Shown: one piece after another, positions 32,224 through 40,694 of the stretch
Position numbering within the stretch: position 1 is the first letter of the stretch
Layout of the letters: each line of letters starts with the position of its first letter
NCBI GenBank assembly: GCA_024692715.1
Contig: JAILMH010000003.1
Coordinates: 1-64,000 of the forward strand
Direction: 5' to 3'
Source of the DNA: Lachnospiraceae bacterium
GTDB lineage: Bacteria > Bacillota > Clostridia > Lachnospirales > Lachnospiraceae
Length of the DNA stretch: 64,000 nt
Notes under the pieces: model-generated
What the model saw: only the letters and a program-made list of their open reading frames with translations
What the model was told of the DNA's origin: nothing
Database searches by the model: none
Made by a program: the position numbers and the translations under genes

Positions 32224-32904
32224 TTATCCGTGATACTCGCCATTGTAAGCGATCATTGTAACATCATCGATTCCGCTGATAGCACGGATCTCATCTGCCA
32301 CCTTGAGATCCTTCTCAACACAGTCAACCTGAACCGTAAGCTCTGTGCTTCCTTCTCTTACAGTCTTTGACTTAACTGAATGCTCAAACTTCTTAAGCTT
32401 TTCAAGTGCCTTTTCCTCAGCATCACCATTTGCATGAATGACCATGATATAAGCCTTTGCAATACTGTGCTTTCCATTCATCGCAATGATAAGGATGAGC
32501 ATGAAGAACATTCCGATAGCTGCAAGAAGATACATACTTGCACCAACTGTAATACCTGTCGTTATCGCCCAGAAGAGATACAAAATATCCAGCGGTTCCT
32601 TGATCGCCGTACGGTATCTGACGATTGAAAGTGCACCGACCATACCAAGTGAGATAACTATGTTTGTACTAATAGCAAGTGTAACCATACATGTAAGAAC
32701 TGTCATTCCTACAAGAGTAAGTGCAAACGATCTGGAATAGATAACTCCCTTGTAAAACTTCTTATAAATTGCATAAATAAGAAGCCCAGCAATCAGTGCC
32801 AGTGCCATATCAACCATAATGGTAAGCAGAGTGCTGAGAGAAATTGTCTGATTATACATATCAGATTCCAGTACCGATTTCTTGATCATTGCTTTAACGC
32901 TCAT
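32224..32904 (-). CDS. DUF4956 membrane protein
   Basis: Multi-TM N-terminus with SLGMVGALSIVRYRTAIKEPLDILYLFWAITTGI; next to VTC and CotH genes. Confidence 0.88.
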   Translation of the reverse strand: MSVKAMIKKSVLESDMYNQTISLSTLLTIMVDMALALIAGLLIYAIYKKFYKGVIYSRSFALTLVGMTVLTCMVTLAISTNIVISLGMVGALSIVRYRTAIKEPLDILYLFWAITTGITVGASMYLLAAIGMFFMLILIIAMNGKHSIAKAYIMVIHANGDAEEKALEKLKKFEHSVKSKTVREGSTELTVQVDCVEKDLKVADEIRAISGIDDVTMIAYNGEYHG

Positions 32905-32981
32905 TATAATTCCAACCTTTCCTTTGCCCCTTGGTGATAAATATCCCCTTTAGATATTACACCTGATTTATTATTTTAACC

Positions 32982-33692
32982 TTAATTAAACCCATAAATA
33001 TTTCTTTTTACATCATCGCACATAACAAACTTGGATGCAGCAGTATATATCGACTGCTCCGGAGGAAGGATGCTTCTGAAAATATCCGGAAGAAATTCTG
33101 TGTATTTTACTTCCATGATAAGATATTCCGGCTCCATCGCATCATATACCGGGATATTTTTACTGAATATATCCCAATCAGTGAAAGCGGACCTTACCTT
33201 CATGTCAAATGTGATCCGCACCGTTCCCTGATCATATATCCACGGAATCCGGTCATAGTCTACGATGACCTCCGGCTTCATGCCATTAACAGTACATTCC
33301 AGATAAAATTCTCTGCACAGTTCATCATCACGTTTGAGAAGAAATGCATAGTCACCTTTTATGATCTTTTCTACTTCTTCTCTGCTCAGGCGGGCCGAAG
33401 CTTTGTATATATAGTTTCCCTGTTTACGTTTACATTCAAGGCTTATAAAATCATCACTATAATTATAAATTCTTATACGATATTTTTTTCTCACAGCTGT
33501 TCCGGCCATTTTTTCTTCATACGCATTGTGCCATAAATCATCAAAATACAGGCTTCGTATGAAGTACTGACCATCAATAGCATGAGAGTCAATCGATGCA
33601 AACGTTTTAAGACGACTTTCAATCACGTCTTTTTCTGCATAGCTAATCAAATATTTCATCTCATGCCTAAATTTGACTGTCTTATCGCTCAT
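32982..33692 (-). CDS. VTC-domain (polyphosphate polymerase-like) protein
   Basis: FRHEMKYLISYAEKDVIESRLK...YFIRSLYFDD...RKKYRIRIYNYSDDFISLECKRKQGNYIYKASARLS...YLIMEVKYTEFLP. Confidence 0.88.
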   Translation of the reverse strand: MSDKTVKFRHEMKYLISYAEKDVIESRLKTFASIDSHAIDGQYFIRSLYFDDLWHNAYEEKMAGTAVRKKYRIRIYNYSDDFISLECKRKQGNYIYKASARLSREEVEKIIKGDYAFLLKRDDELCREFYLECTVNGMKPEVIVDYDRIPWIYDQGTVRITFDMKVRSAFTDWDIFSKNIPVYDAMEPEYLIMEVKYTEFLPDIFRSILPPEQSIYTAASKFVMCDDVKRNIYGFN

Positions 33693-33757
33693 ATCCTCTT
33701 CTTTCCCCAATTAATTGATTCTACCGTAAACAGTTTAAAATGTCTAATAACAACTAA

Positions 33758-35848
33758 CTATTTACAATTTAACTCAACATCTTTAACTATGTATTCGTAA
33801 CGCTTTTCATAAAATTCCTTGAGCTTATCCACTTCAGCATCAAAATCGCTTATCGTCTTTTTCCCACTGTAATAGCGCTCATATGTAAGCTCCATCTGTG
33901 GTCTTATAAGCTCTGCCAGCGAATCTATCTTAGCATTCACCTGCTCTGTATCAAAGAGCTCTGTGCTTATTTCATCAAAGCGCTCCTTAAAATCTTTTCT
34001 AAACTGTTCACTCTTCATTAGCGACTTAAGGAGCCAGTTCTTACCGCTGACTTCTGTAAGACTTTCAAGCTCAACATTTTCAAGATCCATGGATGTGGAA
34101 TTCACATCAAATATGCAGAATCTCCACTTTCCATCTTCATATTCACCATTGCCGGTCTCTCTGACGCGCCACATTCCAACGTTAGATCCGGGCCAGTCGT
34201 TAGTATGCGCAATGTAGATCTGCGCAGTGTAATAATCCAAAAGACTGTCTATGTCCACCCGCTTTTTGAACTCTTCATAAACCGCCGGATCATTCAGATC
34301 AGCATGCGTAACATACGTGGTAAGCTCGTCATAAAGCTCTTTATCCTCAGGATCACCTGCACCGACAGCATCATTTTTTATCATTATGACATTGTTTTCA
34401 TCAACGCCATATTTATCCGAAAAATATGTTTTGCTGTACTTTTGTGCGATCCAGTATAATCCCCAGTACTCGCCATCCAGAAAAACCGCTGCCGGCTTTC
34501 CTTCAAGCACTGCTGCCGAGCTGTCTTTCATAATGTCCGCGAAAAGCATATCCTTAAGCTTTGTGCTGAGATCATCACCTCCGCTGAAAAGAGATATAGA
34601 TTTTTCTTTCCTGTCACCTGCGATCAGATTTTTATCAAAATATGAATCTCCATATGCACCTCTGGCGAAAAGATTAAAGCTCTTCTGCGCATATCCACGG
34701 CTTCCGCCGCCCTTTATCCTGACGCCAAGTGCCTGTGTCAGCTCAAGCTCATGGTTTTCATCAAAAAATGATACCACAGCAGCTCTTTCAGCTTTCCTTC
34801 CGGCAAGGTGATAGTTTCCCGGGGTCCACCACCATATCCCGGCTTTATCGTAGCTTTCTTCTGCTCCGGAAGTTACGTAATCCGCATAGGTCTTACCCAG
34901 CACATAAATTCCGTTCTCATAGGAGAAAAGCCCCTCAGGATCGCTTACAAGGCTTACAACGCTGATACCATCATATTTTTCTTTTTTATCGTATCCGACA
35001 AAATAAACCGATGTATAGGAATCACTCTTTTTCCCGGAATCATCAAAGGCTGCAGCTCTTACCACAACTGCCTTATCCACCGGCTTTGAAGGAATATAAG
35101 TCCTTATCGCAACATCTTCACTTGCAGAATACACATTTTCATTTTTACTTGCATCCGTTATCTCCAACGGTGCTGTATACTTCTCTGAATCACTGTCCGG
35201 CTCACTACCGTCAAGTGTATAACGGATCGTAAGTCCCGGCTCTGTACTTAGAGAAAGCTTGAAGTCTTCATCATAAAAGCCGCTGCTTTCGGAGAAATTA
35301 ACAGCCGCATTCAGTGTTTCTTTAAGACTCACTGCACTGTCATTACTGGCAATAGGCGTAGGTGTCAGCCTATCCCATTTCGAATCTCCATCCCTTATCC
35401 TTCCCCAGACTGTATCCGGTTTCAGATAAGGAACATCTATTTCATCAATTACTCTGCCGCTTGGAGTCGTCAGACTTATTGCAGTCCCCTCAGACGAGAT
35501 TGAAAAGTCAGCCTCTCCATCTACTCCATCACTATCTGCAAATATTATAAGATATCCATTCGCCGGTACTATCTTTCCATCGATCGTCCATCCTGAATCA
35601 AGCGCTTTGTTTTTAGAAAGACGCCACCCTGTAATATCCACATCTTCAGAAGTCGGATTATACAGCTCTATCCAATCCGGATATCTCCCGTAATTATCAG
35701 AAACTGTTGACAGATTTGAAGCACACACCTCATTTATAAGCACATGCCTGCCATCACTCCATAAACTTCTGCAGACTGCCAAAGTAATGATAAGTGCAAA
35801 GAATATCAGAAGTACCACATGAAGGTACCTGTTAAACCACTTTCGCAT
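33758..35848 (-). CDS. CotH kinase-family protein with lamin-tail and chitobiase-C-terminal-like domains
   Basis: INEVCASNLSTVSDNYGRYPDWIELYNPTSEDVDITGWRLS (LTD), GLTIRYTLDGSEPDSDSEKYTAPLEI, and the CotH region KSFNLFARGAYGDSYF...WKFCIFDVNS-like. Confidence 0.88.
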   Translation of the reverse strand: MRKWFNRYLHVVLLIFFALIITLAVCRSLWSDGRHVLINEVCASNLSTVSDNYGRYPDWIELYNPTSEDVDITGWRLSKNKALDSGWTIDGKIVPANGYLIIFADSDGVDGEADFSISSEGTAISLTTPSGRVIDEIDVPYLKPDTVWGRIRDGDSKWDRLTPTPIASNDSAVSLKETLNAAVNFSESSGFYDEDFKLSLSTEPGLTIRYTLDGSEPDSDSEKYTAPLEITDASKNENVYSASEDVAIRTYIPSKPVDKAVVVRAAAFDDSGKKSDSYTSVYFVGYDKKEKYDGISVVSLVSDPEGLFSYENGIYVLGKTYADYVTSGAEESYDKAGIWWWTPGNYHLAGRKAERAAVVSFFDENHELELTQALGVRIKGGGSRGYAQKSFNLFARGAYGDSYFDKNLIAGDRKEKSISLFSGGDDLSTKLKDMLFADIMKDSSAAVLEGKPAAVFLDGEYWGLYWIAQKYSKTYFSDKYGVDENNVIMIKNDAVGAGDPEDKELYDELTTYVTHADLNDPAVYEEFKKRVDIDSLLDYYTAQIYIAHTNDWPGSNVGMWRVRETGNGEYEDGKWRFCIFDVNSTSMDLENVELESLTEVSGKNWLLKSLMKSEQFRKDFKERFDEISTELFDTEQVNAKIDSLAELIRPQMELTYERYYSGKKTISDFDAEVDKLKEFYEKRYEYIVKDVELNCK

Positions 35849-35887: not shown

Positions 35888-36622
35888 TTATTTGAAAAGC
35901 TCTGACGCTGCTCTGAGATCATTCTCATTATCGATCTCATACCATTTTTCTCCGTTAAGCCTGCGTGCCTTTAGAGTTTGCCCTTCAAGACTTCTTATTA
36001 TACCAATAACTGACTCATAGTAAACATTATCTCCCATAGCTTTTCTATATGCCTCCATAAAGGGAACATAATACTTAGTCGAAAAGCCACGGCTAAACTT
36101 GTACATATTGACTGTTTTATAATACTCTGATTTTTCTTCTTCACAAAATTTTTTTCCGGGAATAAAATCAATTATATTGTCATTTTCATCAAGTTTTAAG
36201 CAAGTTCCATCCATCCAGTCATCATATTTATCCACCAGTGCAACAGAGTCCCTTTCATCTTCCGCGAGTCCCTTTATCACTCCATGTTCAGTGATCAGAT
36301 CAGACTCCAGAAGCAGAGTATCATCTTCGAGAAGATATTTGTCCGCAATAAAGAGCGAATAAATATTATTTGTTGTATCATATATTTTATTTTCAACAAA
36401 CACAAGTGGGGTTTTTACACCAAGACTTTCTATATAGCCCTTAAGGAGCTCACTTTTATAGCCTGTGACGATTATTATCCGCTGGAGCTCTAATCCGTCA
36501 AGCTCGCGCAGCATCCTTTCAATGAGAGAAACCCCGTTTACCTTAACCATACACTTGGTATTATTCTCAGTATATTCTTTTAGCCTTTTACCCATTCCAG
36601 CTGCCAGAATCAATGCCTGCAT
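35888..36622 (-). CDS. LicC-like sugar/choline-phosphate nucleotidyltransferase
   Basis: MQALILAAGMGKRLKEYTENNTKCMVKVNGVSLIERMLRELDGL; start refined from 36724. Confidence 0.85.
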   Translation of the reverse strand: MQALILAAGMGKRLKEYTENNTKCMVKVNGVSLIERMLRELDGLELQRIIIVTGYKSELLKGYIESLGVKTPLVFVENKIYDTTNNIYSLFIADKYLLEDDTLLLESDLITEHGVIKGLAEDERDSVALVDKYDDWMDGTCLKLDENDNIIDFIPGKKFCEEEKSEYYKTVNMYKFSRGFSTKYYVPFMEAYRKAMGDNVYYESVIGIIRSLEGQTLKARRLNGEKWYEIDNENDLRAASELFK

Positions 36623-36623
36623 A

Positions 36624-37883
36624 TCAAATTCCTCCTGCTTTCTGTCCCAATTCTTCATACTTTCCAACAAGGTAATCCACTGTACGAACAGCAGCTTCTC
36701 CCGGAAGCTCCCATCTTTCGCCACGCACCTCAGCCCTTCCAGCCTTCAGTGGGTCCTCTTCTATCAACCTGTCGATGATTTCCTTTATATCTCCAAAGTC
36801 ACACTTTTCAAGCTTCTGTCCTATTCTCTTATGCGCATCAAAGCTGTATAGACCTTCTTTATCAAGCCACCACGCATCATAAGGTGAAAGATCAAAGGAT
36901 GTATCTGCGTACAACACCGGCTTATCAAAAACCAGTGCATAGTCAAATATAACACTCGAAAAGTCGGTTATCATGATATCTGCTTTATTAAGGACATCAA
37001 AATTGTCATTGTCCCTGTTCCATGAAAGCTTTTCGCTTTCAGGGTATTTACGCTGAAGCTCTTCCATAAGAGGAATTTCCGAAACAAATGACTGCGGATG
37101 TGGACGAACTATGATCTCATATCCTGTTTTCTGCAAGGCTTCGATCAATTCTCCGCCAAACCTTGACAGAATAGAGCTTTTACCCCAGGAAGATGCCACG
37201 AGCACTGTCCTTCCGGCCTTTTCGGCACGTCCTGTCTCTTCAAGCCGCTTCTTCATCACATCCATATATGCGGAGCCCACATAAGTAAGCTCTTTCTTCT
37301 TTATGGAAGGTCTTATTTTTTCCATATTTCTTATGTTCTTTTCCTGCACATTTCCGGAAAGAAGAACCGCATCATAATAATCAAGCCCGAACATCCTGTA
37401 AAGAGCACTGTCTCCAGTAGAATGATAGGTATGCACATACCAATCCACATTCTGTGAGCGTTTCCACTGATATACATCAAGCCCGGGAGTTGTCGCAAGA
37501 AGTATACCGGCCTTTGCAAAATTCAAACGGGCAAAGGCTTTGTTTCCCTCACCTATGAACTCACATTTAACATATTCATACTTTTCTTCAAGTGCCGGAT
37601 CATTAGAAGCTGCAGTCCAGTACTCAAGCGGTATTTTTCTCTTTTCAAACTCGTCACACACCGGCTTAAAAATATTCCAATACCATTTATTATCACTGAA
37701 TATCAGGTACGGTATCTTCTTTGCCGATGCAGTATCAACCTTGCCTCCGCTTATCATAAATTTAACCTTCAGAAAGATTTTTTGAAGAAAAAATACAACA
37801 GCAGCAGCTACTCCAACTATTACCGAAAACAGCATGCTTCCAGTACCCGGATCAATATATAGTAAAATTCCGGAATAATTCAT
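36624..37883 (-). CDS. Membrane-anchored CDP-glycerol glycerophosphotransferase (TagB/TagF)-family protein
   Basis: N-terminal YIDPGTGSMLFSVIVGVAAAVVFFLQKIF TM segment; C-terminal VLVASSWGKSS...IIVRPHPQS...ADIMITDFSSVIFDYALVFDKPVLY. Confidence 0.85.
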   Translation of the reverse strand: MNYSGILLYIDPGTGSMLFSVIVGVAAAVVFFLQKIFLKVKFMISGGKVDTASAKKIPYLIFSDNKWYWNIFKPVCDEFEKRKIPLEYWTAASNDPALEEKYEYVKCEFIGEGNKAFARLNFAKAGILLATTPGLDVYQWKRSQNVDWYVHTYHSTGDSALYRMFGLDYYDAVLLSGNVQEKNIRNMEKIRPSIKKKELTYVGSAYMDVMKKRLEETGRAEKAGRTVLVASSWGKSSILSRFGGELIEALQKTGYEIIVRPHPQSFVSEIPLMEELQRKYPESEKLSWNRDNDNFDVLNKADIMITDFSSVIFDYALVFDKPVLYADTSFDLSPYDAWWLDKEGLYSFDAHKRIGQKLEKCDFGDIKEIIDRLIEEDPLKAGRAEVRGERWELPGEAAVRTVDYLVGKYEELGQKAGGI

Positions 37884-37898
37884 AATTTCTGCCCTTCC

Positions 37899-40694
37899 TT
37901 ATTCTCCGGCACTTTTATTGCCGGCATAGACCCAGTTAGATTTATCGAAAATATTTTCACTTACCGTATACCATGAAGAATCGCCTGTGTTGAACACATT
38001 TCCACTGTTCTTCTCAAGATGCAGATTGTCGGAAAGTGTCACCATCATAGGCTCTTTATTCTTCGCATCAGAATTTACTTCATTTCCCGTAAACGGATTT
38101 ACCGGGTCACTGATCACTCCCTCCATTGCAAGCGTCGGAACATCCGCATTTGTCATAAAGGTGTTATCAGTAGTAAATTCTTTCGCATCAAAGTCTTTGA
38201 ACATAAGAAGCGGATTTACAGCTTCAACGTCAAGCTCATCATTTACGATCATATCTTCAAACTGTCCAAGATCATAGCCATGATCTGCAACGATTATAAT
38301 TCTTGTATTGTCATAAATCCCCTGTTCTTTAAGGTAATCAAACCAGTTTCCAAGCTGTATAAATGATGCCATATTTACATGATAATGATATTTACCAGGT
38401 TTTTCCTCTTTATAGGCATCGACTGTCTTTCCGTTAAGGGTAAACCTCGACGGGTCATCATACTGTGAATTATTGACATTTCCACTCGGCACATAGTCAG
38501 GCATCTGAAGCTCTGACGGATTATGTGTTGTATTATTGTGGATCATGAAAAAGCTTCCCTTGCCGTTATCTGTTATGTCAGTAAGCTTTGAGAGATTCTT
38601 AAGTACCGCATAGTTTCTAAGGAAATCCTGATCCATGTTATTAACTGTGGTTCCAAAGTAATCTCCGGAATCATAGATAAAGTTCTGCAGAAACAACGGT
38701 GAGGCCTTAAATAAGCTGTACCAGAAAAAGTTTCTGTATTTTATCTCTTTGTGATCAGCTGCAAGTTCATCATCACTTAAAAGATTAGTGTATTCACCAA
38801 GCTTTGTGTGATAAGCGCTGATCCCGGAATACTTCTCGTAGATAGAGAGATCCGGTATATCCTTGTACCCCGCATATGACGGATCACAGACCGTTGCCTG
38901 ATAGCCGTTATCAGAAAAAAGTACCGGCATCAGCAGATCTGCCTGATCGTTTTTTTCTGCCATTGTCTCATCTGTACGTGCATTTATAGCCGCGGGAGTA
39001 TATTCGTATCCGCCATATACCGCAGGGGCTGCCAGATTAGTATGCTCTCCGAAAGAAATAGTATTCGGATAATAGGTAAATCCGGAGAACTGCTCCTTAA
39101 GCTCAGGGCGCTCATTTAACATATAAGGAACATAGCCGCTTATTGCTCTGTCGAGAAGAATGACGACCACGTTCTTTTCATTCCTGCTGAGCTTGATTAT
39201 CGGCTCCACTTCATCATCGGAAGACTTTGCATTCTTTCTTCCCTCGTCTATATACTCGATATCTGAAATATCTTTATTAACTCCAACGACATTATAGGCT
39301 GTAAGAGCCACACCGCCGATAAGTATCACCGAAAGAGCCATAGCCACAAACTGCCTGCGTGCACGATATACAAACGCAAGTACACAGAAAAGTACCACAA
39401 GTACAGCGACATTTATAAGCTTCTCTGATGTCGAATAATGAACTGCCTCTTTATATTCAAGCAATGTTGAAAGTGTACCGAAATTCTTTCCAAAAAACAT
39501 GTAATTGACAAGCGAAGCTATCGCAAGTAAAAACATGACAAAGGTCTGGAACTTTTTAACTTTCTCAGTTCCAAAGAAATAGATTATAGCTCCGCCCCAC
39601 ACAAGGAAAAATCCGGCTGCTATCGATGCAGTGCTGAGCACATAATACAGCGGATTAACGTATGAATATACGTTTACAAAATCCTCAGGTGACGCGCTGA
39701 CAACAGACATAGGGATCAATACACCGTATACACATGTAAGGCATAAGCCTGAAAGAAGGAATATCTTCCCGGTCTTAACATCAGTATTAATAATTCCAGA
39801 TAAAATCTCTCTGAATTTCTTAAGCGCACCTGCAATGACACCATTCGGAGCTTTATCTTTGCAGGCTGCTGCAAATCTTATAAGAGTCGGAATATTCATA
39901 AGTCCGAATAAGAGGAGCATAAACACTGCTCTCTTTAGACTTCCGAGCTTTCCAACAGCCATACACGAAGCAAAGATCACCACCGATGCTGCGCTCAGTA
40001 TCACTGAAAGCACTTTCCCCGGATTCGGCACCAGCTTCAGGAAAATATTTTTCACAAGAGAAAACAGATTGTTTAAGGTCCAGTAAAATACCAGTCCTGC
40101 CGGTCTGTCATACAAAAATACAAGGAAGATCAGCGCAAGGATATAGAGCTGAGCCTTATCCTTTAACGGAAAGCCTCTTGTATAGATCACTCCGGATATA
40201 AAGTTTATAAGTGTCATTAAGATTGGAAAAATATTGATTGAAATACCGAACAGTACTAAGAGCTGATCCGGTGAGCCCATATCATTAATAATCCAAAAAG
40301 ATGTACCCTTTAATAACGATAAATTCGAAAGATATTTATACGCCGCCGTAAAAAACGGAATCTGAAGCAGCAGCGGAAGTGAACCTCTGAAAACATAAAG
40401 CGGTGAATAGTTCTGCTCACGGTAGTAAGCCTGCAGTATCATGAACCTTTCATCACCCTTAAAGGTCTTACGGATGTGTTTTATAGGAAGTGCCATAAGC
40501 TTCTGCATCCGGCGCTCCTCATCCTGAATCGCATCCGCCTTTCTATAAAGCGGAAGCGAAAGTACATTAACCGCTATGCTCACAGAAACGATCGCTATTC
40601 CTGCATTACCGAACATCCTGTAGGTTACAGAAAAGATCGTTTCCATAACCAGGACAAGCGGCATGATAAATATGTTGTATAAACAAGTAAGCAT
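37899..40694 (-). CDS. YidC/Oxa1-like domain fused to an alkaline-phosphatase/sulfatase-superfamily domain
   Basis: Residues ~1-220 YidC-like (NYSPLYVFRGSLPLLLQIPFFTAAYKYLSN, RPAGLVFYWTLNNLFSLVKN); multi-TM middle; C-terminal EKNVVVILLDRAISGYVPYML...FFMIHNNTTHNPSE...RIIIVADHGYDLGQF. Confidence 0.85.
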   Translation of the reverse strand: MLTCLYNIFIMPLVLVMETIFSVTYRMFGNAGIAIVSVSIAVNVLSLPLYRKADAIQDEERRMQKLMALPIKHIRKTFKGDERFMILQAYYREQNYSPLYVFRGSLPLLLQIPFFTAAYKYLSNLSLLKGTSFWIINDMGSPDQLLVLFGISINIFPILMTLINFISGVIYTRGFPLKDKAQLYILALIFLVFLYDRPAGLVFYWTLNNLFSLVKNIFLKLVPNPGKVLSVILSAASVVIFASCMAVGKLGSLKRAVFMLLLFGLMNIPTLIRFAAACKDKAPNGVIAGALKKFREILSGIINTDVKTGKIFLLSGLCLTCVYGVLIPMSVVSASPEDFVNVYSYVNPLYYVLSTASIAAGFFLVWGGAIIYFFGTEKVKKFQTFVMFLLAIASLVNYMFFGKNFGTLSTLLEYKEAVHYSTSEKLINVAVLVVLFCVLAFVYRARRQFVAMALSVILIGGVALTAYNVVGVNKDISDIEYIDEGRKNAKSSDDEVEPIIKLSRNEKNVVVILLDRAISGYVPYMLNERPELKEQFSGFTYYPNTISFGEHTNLAAPAVYGGYEYTPAAINARTDETMAEKNDQADLLMPVLFSDNGYQATVCDPSYAGYKDIPDLSIYEKYSGISAYHTKLGEYTNLLSDDELAADHKEIKYRNFFWYSLFKASPLFLQNFIYDSGDYFGTTVNNMDQDFLRNYAVLKNLSKLTDITDNGKGSFFMIHNNTTHNPSELQMPDYVPSGNVNNSQYDDPSRFTLNGKTVDAYKEEKPGKYHYHVNMASFIQLGNWFDYLKEQGIYDNTRIIIVADHGYDLGQFEDMIVNDELDVEAVNPLLMFKDFDAKEFTTDNTFMTNADVPTLAMEGVISDPVNPFTGNEVNSDAKNKEPMMVTLSDNLHLEKNSGNVFNTGDSSWYTVSENIFDKSNWVYAGNKSAGE

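Follow-up and report, generated by a model that had tools for sequence, protein, structure and literature searches.

The YidC/Oxa1 family, as represented by its SpoIIIJ/YidC2-like members, is built on a core of five transmembrane (TM) helices with a cytosolic hairpin, and protein insertion is its canonical function. E. coli YidC and other Oxa1 proteins were also reported to scramble lipids in vitro (PMC10491306), and lipid scrambling seems to be generic to the Oxa1 superfamily. The extracellular enzymes LtaS, EptA (MCR-1), OpgB (MdoB) and PbgA carry five TM helices followed by an extracellular catalytic domain, and how lipid-linked donors reach transferases such as LtaS and EptA is an open question, as is what follows cytidylyl activation in the tailoring of phosphonates. 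In the Lic and Pnt pathways, PntC forms CMP-AEP and LicC forms CDP-choline, while the later Pnt steps were called enigmatic by Rice et al. (2019), who did not mention YidC (PMC6697681).

Parts resembling each of these systems lie side by side in the window (the whole 64,000-nucleotide stretch of Lachnospiraceae DNA analysed here). The sequence-only reading had described 37899-40694 as one 931-aa gene joining YidC to an LtaS-like enzyme. The gene is real and contains all of the motifs quoted for it, with the correction that it lies on the minus strand; the plus strand across 37899-40694 is full of stops. The features, with their evidence, are as follows.

37899..40694, minus strand: YidC-LtaS-like fusion gene, 931 aa, with an ATG start and without an internal stop (AF2, Pfam, homologues)
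40032..40694, minus strand: YidC/Oxa1 core, residues 1-221, including a cytosolic helical hairpin at about 50-93 (Pfam/TIGRFAM, PDB profile match, AF2 helices)
39780..40031, minus strand: linker containing two additional TM-like helices, residues about 225-279 (AF2, hydropathy, alignment)
39222..39779, minus strand: five-helix membrane module of the LtaS/EptA type, residues about 309-491 (AF2, Foldseek)
37917..39197, minus strand: alkaline-phosphatase-superfamily (LtaS/EptA-like) catalytic domain, residues 500-926 (Pfam, Foldseek, conservation)
36624..37883, minus strand: GPT, a TagF-like CDP-alcohol-type phosphotransferase, 419 aa, with an N-terminal YIDPGTGSML hydrophobic hairpin (Pfam Glyphos_transf, E 7e-12; adjacency; motifs)
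35888..36622, minus strand: PntC/LicC-like nucleotidyl (probably cytidylyl) transferase (nucleotidyltransferase profiles; home-made profiles, best PntC, then LicC)
33758..35848, minus strand: CotH kinase-like secreted protein (Pfam), probably in the same operon, membership of the system uncertain
32982..33710, minus strand: VTC-domain protein (Pfam), probably in the same operon, membership uncertain
32224..32904, minus strand: DUF4956 membrane protein (Pfam), probably in the same operon, membership uncertain

The first 220 or so residues, previously read as a YidC core, match Pfam 60KD_IMP over residues 32-219 (E 3e-24, 86 bits vs. a cut-off of 35) and TIGR03592 yidC_oxa1_cterm (90.5 bits vs. 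84.3), both above the curated cut-offs, and a PDB profile search with the N-terminal part found E. coli YidC (3wvf, E 6e-11) and B. halodurans YidC. The AF2 model of the fusion (mean pLDDT 82, pTM 0.64), calculated like our other AF2 models from a shallow alignment (here 19 homologues), consists of a YidC-like core (1-221), two further helices (225-279), five membrane helices (309-491) and, at 500-926, a catalytic domain of mixed alpha/beta structure. The five-helix core fold with its cytosolic hairpin is kept in the YidC part, which also contains family-specific invariant residues. The linker helices, at about 225-279, are shorter or missing in several homologues according to the alignment.

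The assignment of the C-terminus to the alkaline phosphatase superfamily, with an LtaS-like character, was likewise borne out. Pfam Sulfatase matches residues 507-852 weakly, slightly above its cut-off (E 4e-6, 26.7 bits vs. 25), and a Foldseek search of the PDB returned sulfatases, LtaP, LtaS, MCR-1 and PbgA, among which full-length MCR-1 (9nww) and PbgA (6xlp) align through both the membrane and the catalytic parts over 640-720 columns. The residues D515, T552, H724, D804, H805 and K833 are invariant in 115/115 fusions, suggesting that the enzyme part is very probably active; T552 as the putative nucleophile and D515, D804 and H805 as metal ligands were assigned from motif position, not from coordinate superposition. 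The fusion shares with LtaS, EptA, OpgB and PbgA the order of five TM helices and catalytic domain, with Asp, Thr and Asp-His in place, whereas it differs from them in having YidC in front and a constant GPT partner. Instead of a bulk phospholipid, its donor lipid would probably be one loaded with a head group from a CDP or CMP donor.

Co-linear homologues of the fusion, aligned over more than 900 aa, were found in 16 of 298 Lachnospiraceae genomes. More broadly, many Clostridia carry full-length homologues with 40-52% identity, and there are scattered cases outside this class. In GTDB genomes the related stretches numbered at least 564, from which 79 loci matching at full length were kept, a choice that favoured close relatives of the query fusion and included many short contigs. 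Cultured carriers include Butyrivibrio sp. INlla21, Lachnospiraceae XBD2001 and Schwartzia succinivorans DSM 10502. These 79 loci come from Lachnospiraceae, Oscillospiraceae, Coriobacteria, Selenomonadaceae, Erysipelotrichaceae and two Treponema bins, mostly of rumen and gut origin. Because the full-length homologues, in the 16 genomes and at no fewer than 79 GTDB loci, are co-linear over 900 and more residues, a frameshift or an assembly chimera joining two genes is excluded. A congener of the window's organism (G079) lacks the fusion; the genes on either side are the same there but enclose different DNA, which makes the block in the window look like an exchangeable island.

Tandem copies occur at 17 loci, and in Clostridiales RGIG5968 eight tandem fusion ORFs, two of them short, surround one GPT on a 20-kb stretch, which suggests amplification or differing specificities for acceptor or head group. 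The two rumen Treponema bins carry their fusion genes on short contigs, and these could reflect horizontal transfer or mis-binning. A 17th Lachnospiraceae genome (G097) matches the YidC half only, without a full fusion; its 543-aa YidC, near the end of contig C3 (L004, L050), has E 1e-62 to PF02096 and is unlike the family's other YidCs, and this contig is possibly a contaminant.

The fusion is literally the sole YidC assembled in the window's genome (90% complete, 79 contigs), which bears on the suggestion that it might be the organism's only one. The canonical yidC usually sits together with rnpA and mnmE, and neither rnpA nor a bona fide mnmE was found in this 90%-complete assembly either. 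A separate canonical YidC of 356-456 aa is, however, present in 14/16 fusion genomes, the exceptions being the window's own and one that is 84% complete. With rnpA and mnmE also absent, and a canonical copy present in 14 of the 16 fusion genomes, an assembly gap is the likely reason why none is seen here, and we rejected the notion of the fusion as the only YidC. The fusion is most likely, in normal circumstances, an extra YidC beside the canonical one. A stand-alone YidC of the fusion type was sought and not found.

Relative to the YidC/Oxa1 family, then, the fusion has the same core and hairpin by profile and fold, whereas it carries an enzyme, groups in a separate clade with a long branch and is additional to canonical YidC. 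It also differs in the hydrophilic groove. The groove position that is Arg or Lys in many canonical proteins is N43 in the window's fusion and Asn, Gln or Ser in 114/114 scorable fusions, so that the positive charge is lost. In a control set from the same family and phylum, 45/65 canonical YidCs have Lys or Arg at this position and the other 20 have Asn or Tyr. The literature describes this position in canonical YidC as strictly positively charged, yet 20/65 are without the charge. The loss of Arg was considered as proof of lost insertase function and set aside as undiagnostic, given these 20 canonical proteins. The need for the charge varies with neighbouring residues and it is dispensable in some cases, while S. 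mutans YidC2, in which the neighbouring groove residue is Trp, could not do without its Arg (PMC8920935). The window's fusion shares this Trp with S. mutans YidC2. The replacement is thus compatible with, but not proof of, a changed substrate.

The usual neighbour of the fusion is the GPT. A GPT is present at 74/92 non-duplicate fusion loci and in 0/20 control regions (20 kb, from the same genomes; Fisher p 5e-12), and it directly adjoins 82 of 120 fusion copies. At E<=1e-20, GPT matches occur in 28 of the 298 genomes, all of which (28/28) carry either the YidC-LtaS-like fusion (architecture I) or a second fusion described below (architecture II, YidC-GPT). The GPT shares the Glyphos_transf profile with TagF/TarL-type phosphotransferases; in contrast to these, it is short, it has an N-terminal membrane hairpin or a YidC domain, and the genes around it provide choline or aminoethylphosphonate instead of glycerol. 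In the window, the PntC/LicC-like gene has its ATG at 36622, separated by 1 nt from the stop codon of the GPT, and its ORF is open back to 36724.

Genes for head groups recur around other fusion loci. Those of the choline type are choline kinase, LicC-like cytidylyltransferase (in some cases fused to choline kinase), EamA (LicB-like) and BCCT choline-type transporters; those of the phosphonate type are PEP mutase, phosphonopyruvate decarboxylase, AEP transaminase, a PntC type fused to an aminotransferase, and Fe-alcohol dehydrogenase. One or more head-group genes are found at 49/92 fusion loci (choline-type 23, phosphonate-type 21) vs. 2/20 control regions, by profiles that were built from these same loci; the genome-level PEP mutase test given below used an independent, curated model. 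Our association tests are uncorrected for phylogeny, with nearly every sampled genome representing a different genus. The other 43 loci, several on short contigs, show no head-group gene and may use other head groups or genes in trans. Loci of this kind, including those of the L079 type, have glycosyltransferases, methyltransferases and LCP proteins as neighbours.

The GPT tree shows clustering by head-group label (7 changes vs. 11.7 in shuffles, a value reached by 1-2 of 500), and on it the window's GPT groups with two loci carrying PEP mutase and Fe-alcohol dehydrogenase. The window's own genome (90% complete) has the putative LicC/PntC-type cytidylyltransferase at 35888-36622, whereas neither LicD nor, with the curated model, PEP mutase was found in it. 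PEP mutase is present in 30/298 genomes, and 13 of these are among the 30 genomes that carry architecture I or II (expected 3.0, p=3e-7). Taken separately, architecture I is weakly tied to PEP mutase (5/16 genomes, p=0.015) and architecture II more closely (9/15, p 1e-6). Compared with the Lic and Pnt pathways, the activation genes are of the same kinds, namely those for choline kinase, LicC, LicB-like EamA, PEP mutase, the decarboxylase and PntC (PMC6697681), whereas the downstream step seems to consist of GPT, YidC and the LtaS-like enzyme. LicD rarely lies close to the fusion (about 7 kb away on contig C10 of G260) and coexists with it in 10/16 genomes, and mutual exclusion of the two is unsupported.

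Architecture II was found in 15/298 genomes. In one example (G022; contig C57, L226 1438-3342), a 634-aa YidC-GPT protein, with Pfam matches to 60KD_IMP (23-212) and Glyphos_transf (277-542), comes right after a separate LtaS-like gene. Such a separate gene accompanies 10 of 18 YidC-GPT loci by profile and one more by Pfam, and head-group genes are found at 15/18; YidC-GPT loci include L226 and L273-L290. The AF2 model of an architecture II protein (pLDDT 85.5) has TagF with CDP-glycerol (3l7k) as its best Foldseek match and also matches YidC 3wo6 with a TM-score of 0.73. Invariant residues in His, RPHP and D-x-S motifs (H154, R260-P-H-P, D307 and S309 in the window's numbering) are common to the GPTs of architectures I and II. 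On the tree, each fusion type forms its own clade apart from canonical YidC, on long branches; the test does not reject that both arose once from a common ancestor (AU p 0.78), and we do not claim independent, convergent origins. Mutual exclusion of the architectures was also considered and is unsupported, with 1 shared genome vs. 0.8 expected.

The fusion of YidC to a cytosolic enzyme in architecture II and to an extracellular one in architecture I is the strongest argument that the three modules cooperate. That YidC, the cytosolic GPT and the extracellular LtaS-like transferase belong to one system is, as judged from the sequences, highly likely. We propose that they form a transmembrane relay, and we give this explanation as a whole a probability of about 0.5. 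A LicC/PntC-type enzyme would activate the head group with a cytidylyl moiety, giving CDP-choline, CMP-aminoethylphosphonate or a related compound, and the TagF-like GPT, at the inner face of the membrane, would move the head group from CMP onto a membrane lipid. The hydrophilic groove of YidC would then provide a path by which the head group, still linked to its lipid, is scrambled across the bilayer, and the spent lipid likewise; the five-TM LtaS/EptA-like domain, via Thr552 and the metal site, would move the head group to a surface glycan or polymer. In this scheme we infer the lipid on which the GPT acts, the scrambling by YidC, the choice of head group, the direction in which it is transferred and its final acceptor. 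The topology is consistent with such a relay in the AF2 models: the end of the YidC core lies on the cytosolic side, and the GPT is attached there in architecture II, whereas in architecture I five TM helices after the end of YidC place the catalytic domain outside. This topology reading takes over the membrane orientation of YidC and LtaS.

The extracellular domain is probably a transferase rather than a hydrolase, and a role of the YidC module in lipid passage has slightly less than even chances. The earlier idea of a repurposed YidC working with an extracellular phosphotransferase fits the GPT partner, the choline and phosphonate genes and the YidC-GPT fusion, while the channel or scramblase role in it is one that we infer. 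The definition of the system by the GPT and cytidylyl-activated head groups, and the existence of a second fusion architecture, go beyond that idea. A property that seems to be shared across the Oxa1 superfamily, as scrambling does, would not on its own account for the recruitment of this YidC. Also speaking against the relay are the presence in 10/16 fusion genomes of LicD, which is known to transfer head groups from these donors, the lack of LicD and PEP mutase in the window's own genome, the 43 loci at which no head-group gene was seen, and the weak tie of architecture I alone to PEP mutase.

The rival that we take most seriously, while considering it unlikely, gives the YidC module a role with proteins alone: as a dedicated insertase or chaperone, it would insert and fold the large polytopic transferase (or the GPT) and handle no lipid. 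Insertion is what the family canonically does, the fusion keeps the hairpin and the groove fold, Asn occurs at the groove position of some canonical YidCs, and the positive charge is not needed in every case (PMC8920935); however, the charge is gone from all 114 scorable fusions, and S. mutans YidC2, with the same adjacent Trp as the fusion, needed its Arg (PMC8920935). Moreover, most fusion genomes (14/16) have a canonical YidC anyway, and in architecture II the LtaS-like proteins stand alone without a YidC domain, which sits instead on the cytosolic GPT. That exchange of partners is also what one would expect of a scaffold, and the module might accordingly be a structural tether joining GPT and LtaS-like enzyme, with the lipid flipped by another protein or spontaneously. 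We regard a tether as less probable still, given that the groove-forming fold and the conserved groove and hairpin sequence exceed a tether's needs, and that family-specific invariant residues sit in the YidC part.

The lipid itself could be an ordinary one: the extracellular domain might use phosphatidylglycerol or PE, or hydrolyse head groups, while the GPT and cytidylyl genes make a separate cytosolic teichoic-acid-like polymer. The weak sulfatase match and the fold relatives, which include phosphonate monoester hydrolases as well as LtaS and EptA, would agree with this; the invariant Thr at the nucleophile position (115/115) would not, and a GPT that occurs solely with a YidC fusion (28/28 genomes) is unlike an independent pathway, which makes this reading improbable. 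The chance of an accidental or recent fusion, or a chimera, without special meaning is close to nil. For it speaks the lack of another assembled yidC in the window's draft genome, and it is already refuted by hundreds of related stretches, co-linear homologues, a conserved partner and two architectures.

Natural YidC fusions to a cytosolic or an extracellular transferase point to a candidate for the missing membrane step, and offer an in vivo test of lipid movement by Oxa1-superfamily proteins, the basis for which has so far been reconstitution and simulation. The proposed three-part head-group machine would be widespread and is apparently undescribed; judged by titles and abstracts, no description of either fusion (YidC-LtaS-like or YidC-GPT) was found in the open-access literature. 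Phosphocholine and phosphonates on gut bacteria have a bearing on host recognition and phage attachment. Our broadest suggestion, which we offer tentatively, is that a YidC-family protein left protein insertion and became the part that passes lipids in a machine dedicated to the export of head groups, where it would link a cytosolic CDP/CMP-head-group transferase with an extracellular transferase. Many Clostridia of the gut would thereby have a way to decorate their surface with phosphocholine and phosphonate that does not depend on LicD.

Two further observations concern neighbouring genes. The CotH, VTC and DUF4956 block (32224-35848) follows immediately downstream of the system, in the same orientation, and is missing from the related region of G079, including its VTC gene, and a CotH homologue recurs close to the fusion at L081. 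At L080 (9413-11776, genome G052), a divergent 787-aa fusion with 28% identity to that of the window, whose sulfatase part is missed by Pfam, has a GPT and a DegT aminotransferase as neighbours.
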